A DNA stretch of 64,000 nucleotides from assembly GCF_013004695.1 (NCBI RefSeq), contig NZ_JABEMG010000004.1, positions 1 to 64,000 of the forward strand. Reading direction: 5' to 3'. Below, piece after piece: positions 5,431 through 8,442 of this stretch. Source of the stretch: Promicromonospora citrea. Its GTDB lineage: Bacteria > Actinomycetota > Actinomycetes > Actinomycetales > Cellulomonadaceae. How positions within the stretch are numbered: position 1 is the first letter of the stretch; each line of letters opens with the position of its first letter. A program made the translations under genes and the position numbers. The notes beneath the pieces are model-generated. The model was not told the DNA's origin and did no database searches. It worked only from the letters and a program-made list of their open reading frames with translations.

Positions 5431-5739
5431 CTAGAAGGTGTGGCCGAGGTCGATCAGCCAGTTCGTCCAGGCCAAGGCACCGCCGCTGATGACCCCGCCG
5501 ATGAGGGAGCCGAGGAGGCCGGTGCGGGCCTTGCTGGTGGCCTGCCAGTTCCCCGTCGCGGACGCGATGGGCCAGACGAACGCGCAGATCACGAACATCG
5601 CCACCGCGATCAGCACGGTGATCGTCAGCAGGGCGCCGATGATCGGGAGCAGGCGCGTCCCCGCGACCGCGCTGAAGTCGGGGCCGATCCCCACGGCCAG
5701 CACTGCAGGGACCCTCAGGGAGAGTGGAGAGATCGTCAT
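5431..5739 (-). CDS. DUF6112-like conjugative-element membrane protein (second copy)
   Basis: A 102-aa protein with two predicted transmembrane helices (about 30-55 and 75-97) and a short basic connecting loop (NWQATSKARTGLLG). It is homologous in layout to the 124-aa protein encoded just downstream, with a similar ending (AWTNWLIDLGHTF). The start ATG overlaps the stop of the upstream cell-wall hydrolase gene (ATGA), so the three genes form one transfer operon read right to left. The likely role is a structural or accessory membrane component of a conjugation apparatus, inferred from context and family resemblance. Confidence 0.65.
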   Translation of the reverse strand: MTISPLSLRVPAVLAVGIGPDFSAVAGTRLLPIIGALLTITVLIAVAMFVICAFVWPIASATGNWQATSKARTGLLGSLIGGVISGGALAWTNWLIDLGHTF

Positions 5740-6806
5740 GACGTCGCTCCCGTCGGGCAGGTCCCGGTGGCCGGCAGGACGGCTGAGCCGTCGAGGGCGG
5801 TGGGGGAGTGGGTCGCGAGCCAGGGTTCGGGGTCGACCGGGGCGGCGTCGAACCCGCCGGGGTGGATCTGCAGGTGCAGGTGCGGGCCGGTGGACTGCCC
5901 GGTGGACCCGACCTGCGCGACCTGGGACCCGGCTGTCACGACGTCTCCCTCGGCCACGGTCGTGGACCCGTCGCTCAGGTGCGCGTACGCGGAGGCCATC
6001 CGCTGCGGGCCGTCGGAGCCCGTGAGGGTGTGGTCGATGACGAGCAGGTTGCCCGCGCGGGGGTCCGGGCCCGCGTAGGAGACGACTCCGTCGGCCAGCG
6101 CGAGCATCGGGGTGCCGGCGGGGGCGGCGTAATCGACACCCGCGTGCAGGGTCCGCACCCCGGTCACGGGGTGGGTCCGCGTCCCGAACCTGGAGGCGCG
6201 TGTCCAGGTGCCGGCCGGCAGCGGGAACACCACACGCGACGACACCGGTGTGCCACTCCCACCGTCGGGTGTGCCCGGGCCGGGTGACGTGGTGAGCCGT
6301 TCGAGGATGGCGCGGGCGACGGGTTCGTGCTGGGCGTACCGGTCCGGGAACGCCGAGACCTCGACTGCTTGTGCGGCGGCGCCCTTGGGCAGTTGCTGCC
6401 AGTCGGGGATGTCGAGCAGGCCGCGGGGTGAGCCGTGGTTGGGGCCGGTGGGTCCGCCCAAGAACGCTGCTACCTGGTAGGTGGGGTCCATGAGCTGGGC
6501 GACGGTTCCCCACCCGGCCGCCGGGCGCATCTGGAACAGGCCGAGGCTGTCGTGGTCCTGACCGGTCCCGTCGTGCGGGTAGGTCGTGGAGTCGGGGTAA
6601 GCGCCCGGGTTGGCCAGCATCCGCAGGTGCGACTCGGTCAGCGCCGCCATCAGTGCGACCAGGACCCCGTCCCGCCCCACACCGGTGGTGCGTGACCCGG
6701 TTGTGATGATCGTGGCGGCGTGCCCGAGCTGGACCCGGTCCAGCCGGACGACGTCGCCACCGGTCGTGGTCGCCGTGAGCTCGGCGGGCAGCGACCCGAC
6801 CGCACT
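5736..6806 (-). pseudogene. Conjugation cell-wall hydrolase (lysozyme-like plus M23), 5' end removed by IS
   Basis: About 356 codons remain of a bifunctional peptidoglycan hydrolase of actinobacterial conjugative elements. The N-terminal half carries a lysozyme-like/transglycosylase domain (MAALTESHLR with the candidate catalytic Glu, then DSLGLFQMRP). The C-terminal half is an M23 metallopeptidase with the zinc ligands visible in LHAGVDYAAP (HxxxD) and GPHLHLQI (HxH). Such enzymes open the wall locally for the transfer machine. The reading frame runs straight into the inverted repeat of the IS5-like element at 6805, so the original start, signal or membrane anchor is gone. A fortuitous start inside the IS could still give a fused product. 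Confidence 0.75.
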
Positions 6807-6824
6807 AGGGCGTGTTTGAGATTG
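6805..6824 (+). repeat. Left inverted repeat of the IS5-like element
   Basis: CTAGGGCGTGTTTGAGATTG matches the reverse complement of 8076-8095 at 19 of 20 positions. The passenger gene stops 3 bp inside it. Confidence 0.85.
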
Positions 6825-6826
6825 GG

Positions 6827-7114
6827 TCAGCGTTGGTGGGTCCAGGCTAGGACGTCGTCGGCGATGGTGGTCGGGGTCGCCGCGGTGGTCGTTGTGCGTT
6901 CTGCGGTCCGGGGGTCGTGCCAATCCAGTTCGTAGCCGCCGAATGTGCCGATGTTCTTGGAGACTGAGATGAACCACTCGGCGTCGTCAACGGGTGGATG
7001 GACGACGATGAAGGTGTTGTCGGCGTCGTTGAGCCCGTCGATCAGGTCGAGCAGGTCGTTGCGTGTCGGGTCCTGGAGCCGGATGCCGCTCTCGGTGTCG
7101 GCGTAGAACGTCAC
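6827..7114 (-). CDS. IS passenger gene; small acidic protein, possibly Imm1-like
   Basis: A 95-aa acidic soluble protein (starts MTFYADTESG, contains FIVVHPPVDDAEWFISV and FGGYELDWHD). It lies wholly between the IS inverted repeats, 19 bp downstream of the transposase stop, with TCCTGGGG before its GTG start. The pattern (N-terminal helix DLLDLIDGL, beta strands, conserved Trp and GGYELDW) recalls the Imm1 type of immunity proteins of polymorphic toxin systems, but this is a tentative fold-level impression. It has no transposase features. If translated with the transposase it would be spread by the element. Alternative: a small regulator of transposition. Confidence 0.6.
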   Translation of the reverse strand: MTFYADTESGIRLQDPTRNDLLDLIDGLNDADNTFIVVHPPVDDAEWFISVSKNIGTFGGYELDWHDPRTAERTTTTAATPTTIADDVLAWTHQR

Positions 7115-7133
7115 GACCCCAGGATGCCAGCAC

Positions 7134-8039
7134 TCAGGCGGCCCTCACGAGCGCTTTGACCCAGTCGTCGATCACTGCGACCGTCACGCTCGCTTCGTAG
7201 CGGACCTGCAACTTGTCGAACCGGGTGGCGATTGCTCGCCAGCGCTTGAGGCGGTTGAACATGCACTCCACCGCGTGCCGCTTCTTGTAGTCCTCGTAGT
7301 CGACCTTCGGTGGGCGCCCACCAGCCGAGCCCTTCGCCTGCCGGTGGGCGGCGTGGTCCTTCTTGTCAGGGATCGTCGCGCGGATACCGCGCCGGCGCAG
7401 CAAGGCCCGGTTGCCTGCCGAGGCGTAGGCCTTGTCTGCCCGGACCCGTTCCGGTCTCGTGCGCGGCCGCCCGACCTTCGAAGGACGTTTGACGCTGACC
7501 TGCTCGAGCACCGGGCCGAACTGCGGGCTGTCTCCACGCTGCCCGGCCGTGACGACCATGCCCATCAGCTTCTGGCCCTGTTCGACCGCGGCGTGGATCT
7601 TGGTGCTCAGCCCACCACGTGACCTGCCCAGCCCGTGATCGGCCGGCTCTGATCGGACGGGCCCGTGCGGGGGCTCAGCCTGCGCGTCCGGGTCCCGGCG
7701 AGCCCCGGCGGCATGCTGGTGCGCACGGGTGATCGTGGAGTCCAGGTTCAGTTCCCATTCGATCAGGCCCGCACCGTCGGCGGCGGTGCGCAGCCGGTCA
7801 GCGATCAGGTCCCAGGACCCGTCCAGCTGCCAGTCCCGGAACCGGGAGTAGACGCTCTGCCACGGTCCGTACTCGCTCGGCACGTCCCGCCACGGGCAAC
7901 CGGTCCGGGTCCGGAACCGGATCCCGTCGATCTGTCGACGTAACGCCCGCGGCCTGCGGCCGCGGGCCTTGACCGGCAGCAACGGCTCGAGCACTGCCCA
8001 GGCCACATCGCTCAGATCATGCCGCTCCGCGTCACCCAC
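7134..8039 (-). CDS. IS5-family DDE transposase
   Basis: A 301-aa DDE transposase that cuts and joins the element ends. It starts with the DUF4096-like N-terminal region (LSDVAWAVLEPLLP, then TGCPWRDVPSEYGPW near residues 47-60) typical of the IS427-like branch of IS5. The catalytic triad is visible as D100 (LNLDSTITRAHQH), D202 (RVRADKAYAS) and E258 (RHAVECMFNRLKRWR). Length and motifs are complete and the element ends are intact, so the enzyme may be active. The stop lies 19 bp before the passenger gene. Confidence 0.92.
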   Translation of the reverse strand: MGDAERHDLSDVAWAVLEPLLPVKARGRRPRALRRQIDGIRFRTRTGCPWRDVPSEYGPWQSVYSRFRDWQLDGSWDLIADRLRTAADGAGLIEWELNLDSTITRAHQHAAGARRDPDAQAEPPHGPVRSEPADHGLGRSRGGLSTKIHAAVEQGQKLMGMVVTAGQRGDSPQFGPVLEQVSVKRPSKVGRPRTRPERVRADKAYASAGNRALLRRRGIRATIPDKKDHAAHRQAKGSAGGRPPKVDYEDYKKRHAVECMFNRLKRWRAIATRFDKLQVRYEASVTVAVIDDWVKALVRAA

Positions 8040-8075
8040 GACCCCGGATCATGCCGAAACACCAGGTCACGACCA

Positions 8076-8095
8076 CAATCTCAAACAGGCCCTAG
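8076..8095 (-). repeat. Right inverted repeat of the IS5-like element
   Basis: Reverse complement reads CTAGGGCCTGTTTGAGATTG, one mismatch from the left end. It lies about 37 bp upstream of the transposase start, so the transposase promoter must overlap it. Confidence 0.85.
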
Positions 8096-8283
8096 GTGTG
8101 TTGTCCAGCGAGGTTGTCTTGGATCTGGGCGACACGCGAGCACAGCCGTTGCGGAACCGGCAGAACGCTGCGTCCGCATGGGAGCCTGACACCATGCATC
8201 AGCACATGAACCCCGGATGCCCGTGGGATGCCCACGAGCAGGTTTCCGAGGGGTGTCTGTGCAGGTCAGGGCAACTTCCACGG
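8096..8283. other. Island DNA between the IS and the tRNA scar
   Basis: About 190 bp with no convincing gene. The frames here do not continue the interrupted hydrolase recognisably. The last bases (to CCACGG at 8278-8283) abut the tRNA-like fragment. Confidence 0.35.
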
Positions 8284-8325
8284 TTTACACCGTGGATGTC
8301 GGGGGTTCGAATCCCTCCGGGCCCA
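8284..8325 (+). tRNA. 3' fragment of tRNA-Val(TAC), probable attachment-site scar
   Basis: The sequence has the features of the 3' half of a tRNA-Val. An anticodon loop TTTACAC with anticodon TAC is followed by CGTGG as the 3' anticodon strand, variable loop ATGTC, a T arm GGGGG-TTCGAAT-CCCTC, acceptor 3' strand CGGGCCC, discriminator A and CC. The matching 5' half (an acceptor beginning GGGCCCG and a D arm) is absent upstream, and the anticodon stem is out of register by one G. A lone tRNA 3' end at the border of a region with IS and conjugation genes is the classical product of integrase-mediated insertion into a tRNA gene. It is not expected to give a functional tRNA. Confidence 0.65.
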
Positions 8326-8442
8326 CCGATTGCCCGTGTGATCCTGCGGCCGTGGCGCATCAGCCGCGGCGGAGGAGCTCCAGCGCGGACCGCGCGCCGC
8401 CGCGGAGCTCCCCGCCCGCTCGACGAGCTCGAACGACCCGGC
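8326..8442. other. Short spacer between tRNA scar and aldo/keto reductase gene
   Basis: No gene seen. This is the first stretch to the right of the proposed island boundary. Confidence 0.3.

Follow-up and report, generated by a model that had tools for sequence, protein, structure and literature searches.

In the window, the 64,000-nucleotide stretch of DNA analyzed here, an IS5-family element on the minus strand (positions 6808 to 8092) carries a transposase and, behind it on the same strand, a conserved 95-aa gene. We consider it likely, with a probability of roughly 85%, that this element is a transporter IS and belongs to an IS5 clade with a cargo slot that works by the mechanism proposed below. 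Comparison of related sequences indicates that this slot, bounded by the transposase stop codon on one side and the terminal repeat on the other, is exchangeable.

Insertion sequences are usually described as carrying their own transposase alone, with cargo being a feature of larger transposons or of IS pairs. The term transporter IS (tIS) has been applied to IS-like elements with one or more passenger genes uninvolved in transposition (PMC11891212, PMC7986276, PMC9330008), and examples include ISNha5 of the IS1595 family, IS220 (IS1380), ISCgl1 (IS481), and ISDsp3 (IS6) (PMC11891212, PMC7986276). In the accessible text of these papers, the known tIS resemble the window element in that their passengers are not involved in transposition, but they belong to other IS families and are cited as single examples, whereas members of the IS5 clade of the window element hold many genes of unrelated kinds in a single slot, whose edge at the transposase stop is sharp. 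We found no account of an IS5-family passenger slot in the accessible literature, and one may exist in subscription papers or ISfinder, which lay outside its scope. The window element is best filed as a tIS of the IS5 family, and the novelty would lie in the exchangeable slot. Elements of only about 1.2 to 2.0 kb, the size range of the relatives, would then carry changing single genes in one place, among them enzymes, regulators, and perhaps immunity-like proteins. If this is true, single genes can spread horizontally among actinobacteria in a very compact carrier, which annotation mostly lists as an "IS5 family transposase" plus a "hypothetical protein," and close elements that differ only in cargo make it testable how an IS gains a passenger.

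The window element and its insertion site

The transposase (7134 to 8039, minus strand) is a 301-aa protein with a GTG start. It matches the NCBIfam model IS5_3 (NF033580) at 241.2 bits against a cut-off of 110, with residues 6-293 covering positions 2-257 of the 258 in the model. The frame is intact and the model is matched nearly end to end, as expected from the original prediction of a complete transposase. The DDE residues are presumably D100, D202, and E258.

Short terminal inverted repeats and a TA or CTAG target are features of the IS5 family, and both are present in the window element. A repeat search of the window returned two 20-nt arms, 6805-6824 and 8076-8095, that are 95% complementary and enclose the element as originally predicted. 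The outer CTAG of each arm (6805 to 6808 at the passenger end, 8092 to 8095 at the transposase end) is a palindrome, and among the 52 securely ended relatives described below, 41 have CTA as their left flank and TAG as their right flank, and the remaining 11 have at least TA on both sides. Because it is palindromic and CTA/TAG or TA flanks all 52 related elements, we read the outer CTAG as target and not as repeat. This leaves terminal inverted repeats at 6808 to 6824 (plus strand, behind the passenger gene) and 8076 to 8092 (minus strand, upstream of the transposase), and thus an element proper of 1285 bp between TA dinucleotides. The duplicated target could be TA or CTAG; if it is TA, the G at 6808 is the first base of the element and the C at 8092 the last. 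Compared inward, the two ends match at 16 of 20 positions from 6809 and at 18 of 20 from A6807. The element may belong to the IS427 group of ISfinder or to another.

The element is present in one copy in its own genome, where three weaker matches are partial (68-72%). Its left end interrupts a gene at 5736-6804 that by eye resembles a lysozyme- or peptidase-like secreted protein. This left flank matches four genomes of the same genus at 82-88% to within 3-6 bp of the first base of the element, beyond which those genomes continue with sequence of their own. No clean empty site was found at these four loci, where the right flank of the window has no match, and the insertion site may have been rearranged. 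In that right flank, positions 8262-8328 by eye resemble the 3' part of a tRNA gene and may be the attachment site of an integrated element; ARAGORN reported no tRNA in the window.

An exchangeable slot behind the transposase

Relatives of the transposase were collected from 199 related genomes, 296 class-wide genomes, 199 genomes of a further genus (inferred to be Streptomyces, as coordinates in two of its genomes equal those on named Streptomyces plasmids), and plasmid loci. Element ends were defined as matching ends with TA flanks and an entry score of 10.5, and were called secure at a score of at least 12. Among 219 mononucleotide shuffles, 7.8% reached 10.5, none reached 12, and the maximum was 11.3. 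Ends were assigned to 107 of the 171 transposase rows examined (the same place may recur in several loci), and 64 lacked an accepted pair. The rows with ends correspond to 73 distinct elements, of which 21 scored below 12 and were left out, leaving 52 secure elements. Ends with scores of 11.2 (L142, L165) and 11.6 (L111) were confirmed through a second copy.

At least 295 nt lie behind the transposase in 39 of the 52 secure elements. The expectation that IS5 elements rarely carry cargo was therefore wrong for this clade. The remaining 13 end -3 to 22 nt after the transposase stop, in contrast to the window element with its 326 nt and a gene, and their existence shows that cargo is dispensable in the family. 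Two elements, L117 and L189, were assigned to the cargo-bearing group by hand; their transposase frame passes the usual stop and continues into the cargo region, as if fused to the passenger or read through.

The small gene is found in 20 of the 39 cargo-bearing elements (frameshifted or decayed in two), and 19 have other content. Proteins over the Pfam cut-off in this slot belong to Glyoxalase_6 (L108 and L133, with L111 assigned by homology), AAA_33 (L129, with L186 alike), DUF1877 (L174, with L135 alike), MerR (L194, with L156 alike), GNAT (L142), Abhydrolase_6 (L201), SnoaL (L220), and DUF4265 (L138). A hydrolase-like protein in L219 and several other cargo proteins have no Pfam match over the cut-off. 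The small, AAA_33, and MerR genes are oriented with the transposase; the VOC, DUF1877, GNAT, SnoaL, and DUF4265 genes are opposite to it, and the two hydrolases lie one each way. Ten further named plasmid records were examined. Three of these have ends scoring at least 12, namely a cargo-less Rhodococcus element and two Streptomyces elements with other content; a fourth, L227 (ends 11.2), carries a pyridoxamine-phosphate-oxidase-family gene, and the remaining six have lower-scoring ends or lack TA.

The position at which elements diverge coincides closely with the end of the transposase. Twelve elements of one subclade are 76.5-92.5% identical in nucleotides from the left end to position 915-934, with the transposase stop at 919-924; past this boundary, the only blast matches are of 22-23 nt, located at the far repeat and confined to three pairs. 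L108 and L219, for example, are 92.5% identical over their first 917 nt, after which one has a glyoxalase-like and the other a hydrolase-like gene. In pairs with common cargo (L135/L174 and L108/L111), homology continues past the stop. On a transposase tree of 68 rows built by a quick method, 28 cargo labels require 31 changes, a count to be read knowing that the labels include single unnamed genes judged by length and third-position GC only and that frameshifted and decayed small genes are labeled apart, which raises it. L010, L089, L193, and L213 were left out of the tree for implausible ends.

Copies at different places have the form expected of an element that moves with its cargo. In same-cargo pairs at different places, homology extends no more than 24 nt past the repeats; such pairs include eight with the small gene (75.5-100% identity) and others with DUF1877 (89%), VOC (88%, with one gap), MerR (96%), GNAT (99.9%), a convergent small gene (88%), and AAA_33 (87%). 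One genome contains six identical copies of a 1279-bp relative at six genomic places, each with the small gene inside. A tIS is marked by a gene that is enclosed by the repeats, is carried along by them, and is not needed for transposition; these multi-site copies display the joint movement, in keeping with the prediction of a non-transposase passenger that travels inside the repeats. Transposition of the element together with its gene is seen only through its products in genomes. Since related elements exist without the small gene, it is probably not needed for transposition.

In the mechanism that we propose, the transposase would pair the terminal repeats and integrate the complete segment at CTAG or TA targets, so that any DNA from the transposase stop codon to the far repeat would move along. 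The stop codon would be the last base that selection must keep, hence the boundary. New DNA would most likely enter through joint use of the left end and a repeat-like end that lies farther downstream, or else by recombination between neighboring elements. In the window element, the co-oriented 95-aa gene would probably be expressed by read-through from the transposase promoter. A broader proposal, to which we give slightly less than even odds, is that the clade is a dedicated single-gene carrier whose far repeat is loosely placed, so that it would repeatedly capture and spread any gene behind the transposase as far as the next repeat that resembles an end; orphan immunity genes of the Imm1 fold would be among these, acquired at least twice independently and in both orientations. 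In L119, an end-like repeat directly follows the transposase stop and a second, nearly identical one lies 1.2 kb downstream; this locus is a possible intermediate of cargo capture.

The small gene and its association with the transposase

The passenger gene of the window (6827 to 7114, minus strand) encodes 95 aa from a GTG start and belongs to a conserved family without a Pfam model, with a predicted YkuJ/DddI-like fold. It begins 19 bp past the transposase stop, and its own stop codon is 2 bp from the 20-nt repeat arm. The 19-bp spacer (7115 to 7133, minus strand) contains GCTGGCATCCT, also present in several relatives: the window, L012, L014, L017, L022, and L031 retain a short motif around the transposase stop, in most cases GCTGGCATCCT, although the frame in which it stands to the small gene varies among elements.

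Homologs occur in 14 of the 199 genomes searched, including its own, at 33 places, and 32 of these have no stop inside the match. An IS5 transposase lies directly upstream at 20 places, although L009 has only the transposase end and the copy in L010 is broken. A contig end truncates another 6, and the remaining 7 lack a usable transposase as neighbor (the neighborhood was read for 6 of these). Among the 24 transposase places listed, 20, including that of the window, have at least 74% identity. The small gene occupies the same slot in 19 of the 20, one of them (L008) with a frameshifted start, and the remaining one is cut by a contig end. It is absent at the 4 more distant places, below 74% identity. 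Homologs were found on 8 plasmid records, 7 from Streptomyces and 1 from Cellulosimicrobium, and in every case an IS5 transposase precedes them; in 6 of the 7 Streptomyces loci, the small-gene stop codon lies within the terminal repeat. In a class-wide sample of 394 genomes, 12, again including its own, have a match, and free-standing, distant relatives account for 4 of the 14 matches.

This distribution confirms the separate gene that had been predicted 19 bp behind the transposase. Other copies of the IS were a point on which that prediction could have failed, and all 19 evaluable copies with at least 74% transposase identity contain the gene. A chance frame without conservation was another. 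The small proteins are 35-68% identical to that of the window across Promicromonosporaceae and Streptomyces, and an 18-row alignment has 10 invariant columns. Across the 45 least diverged pairs, to which the listing was limited, dN/dS of the small gene is 0.13-0.50 in Streptomyces pairs (transposase 0.08-0.21). Diverged pairs from Promicromonosporaceae have 0.69-1.31, against 0.16-0.33 for the transposase; a single mixed pair gives 1.58 (transposase 0.50), and one pair has no synonymous change. This pattern suggests that the gene is kept but fast-changing. Decayed or frameshifted copies (L005/L008, L020, L032, L036, and L169) would be expected if the association were accidental, the gene being either a chance frame or a hitch-hiking host gene undergoing loss. 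Given the identity across two lineages, the invariant residues, the low ratios among the Streptomyces pairs listed, and the travel of the gene between the same repeats, we regard this explanation as highly improbable. Judged by its sequence, the small gene is a conserved gene, and a chance frame is refuted.

Full-length small genes without an IS5 transposase beside them occur at L013 and L018 and were possibly retained by the host after loss of the IS. In two Streptomyces elements, L045 and L048, the small gene is accompanied by about 260 additional nt, and each has a convergent second frame of 98 aa that resembles its counterpart in the other.

A closer tie to the transposase is conceivable, in which the small protein is not cargo but an accessory or regulator of transposition, such as an inhibitor or host-factor mimic, that co-evolved with the transposase. 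The association with one transposase lineage is long: 19 of the 68 tree rows carry the label "small" (21 with the frameshifted and decayed copies), falling in two large groups, with 6 changes of which at least 4 are forced by starred branches. Throughout that lineage the gene has the orientation of the transposase, which it follows at a distance of 19 bp in the window, and the motif around the stop is conserved. All of this would suit an accessory, but close transposases lack the small gene or have unrelated genes in the slot, convergent ones among them; DUF4265 and MerR elements fall among the small-gene elements on the transposase tree, substituting for the gene inside its own clade; and seven free-standing relatives have no IS5 transposase beside them. 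We therefore think an accessory role unlikely, though conceivable for this subclade alone, and continue to treat the small gene as the passenger of a tIS.

Predicted fold and possible role of the small protein

No family in Pfam or NCBIfam matches the small protein of the window over the cut-off, and the Pfam matches of four relatives include no Imm1. In PHROGs and PADLOC, no match improved on E 0.029. Phage records yielded no homolog of either the small protein or the free-standing family, and three single-protein queries found none in viral contigs. A similarity to UvrA (phmmer E 2.7e-4) fell to E 0.58 with a profile and was dismissed as chance.

The small proteins are related to a wider family of about 110 aa (hhalign 98.4%). 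Seven of its members (L053-L056, L062, L064, and L065) are the free-standing relatives mentioned above; the one in L056 is fused to a DUF6891 domain. In L063, L165, and L222, a member lies convergent to an IS5 transposase. In the protein tree, the 18 small proteins of the 18-row alignment form one side of a branch with a support of 99, and the convergent pair L063/L165 groups with the free-standing proteins. This placement suggests that the superfamily was probably acquired at least twice.

The fold is likely YkuJ/Imm1-like, as judged from predicted structures. A first model, made from a two-row alignment (pLDDT 74.6, pTM 0.68), matches YkuJ with Z 9.4 and DddI (6u08_B) with Z 9.3 over 86 of 95 residues at 2.7 A, followed by 6anz at 7.6 and then a drop to 4.7. 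A second model, predicted without an alignment (single sequence; pLDDT 65.0, pTM 0.53), matches YkuJ with Z 9.8, and DddI is absent from its list. Foldseek returned nothing at E 0.001 for the small-protein model; YkuJ and DddI are shown only by a second aligner. YkuJ of Bacillus subtilis (2ffg, 9a74) is thus alike in predicted fold in both models, but its sequence identity to the small protein is only about 10%. DddI confers immunity to the DddA deaminase, and profile comparison places it in Imm1: it is the only PDB match (E 1.2e-6) of a profile of 8 actinobacterial Imm1 proteins, drawn from 8 of 14 Imm1 loci. Its toxin partner is known, whereas none is known for the small protein, and the two have no significant sequence or profile similarity. 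The window protein does not pass the gathering score of Imm1 (PF14430), and hhalign against the Imm1 alignment gives 0.1% for the small proteins; the 27% obtained for the wider family comes from an alignment that contained one IS-type row (L066). The earlier guess of an Imm1-like protein therefore has partial support at the level of fold, through DddI in one of the two models and beside an equally good YkuJ, and none at the level of sequence.

These matches bear on whether the passenger is an orphan Imm1-fold immunity gene, spread by the IS and protecting its carrier from interbacterial deaminase-type toxins. SMI1/KNR4- and DUF2199-type genes are often immunity genes, and one homolog of the small gene adjoins both; this, the likeness of the first model to DddI, and the rapid change of the protein would fit such a role. 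Against it, YkuJ matches as well as DddI and the list of the second model lacks the latter, a link to Imm1 is missing at the sequence level, several other cargo genes encode enzymes, and the dN/dS of diverged Promicromonosporaceae pairs could reflect weak constraint. No toxin gene was recognized beside homologs at the loci whose neighbors were read, and a search of 99 genomes for DddA-like toxins gave no match but, with no control matching either, carries little information. We hold protection against such toxins to be a tentative possibility, with the odds somewhat against it, and from the models we judge an immunity role in general to be conceivable but doubtful to the same degree. Within the tIS reading, the weaker part of our proposal is accordingly worded: the small protein may be a binding protein of immunity type, an orphan with an Imm1/YkuJ fold, and would serve the host cell and not transposition. 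A separate protein on contig 29 of the same genome (L037) matches Imm1 (PF14430) over the cut-off.
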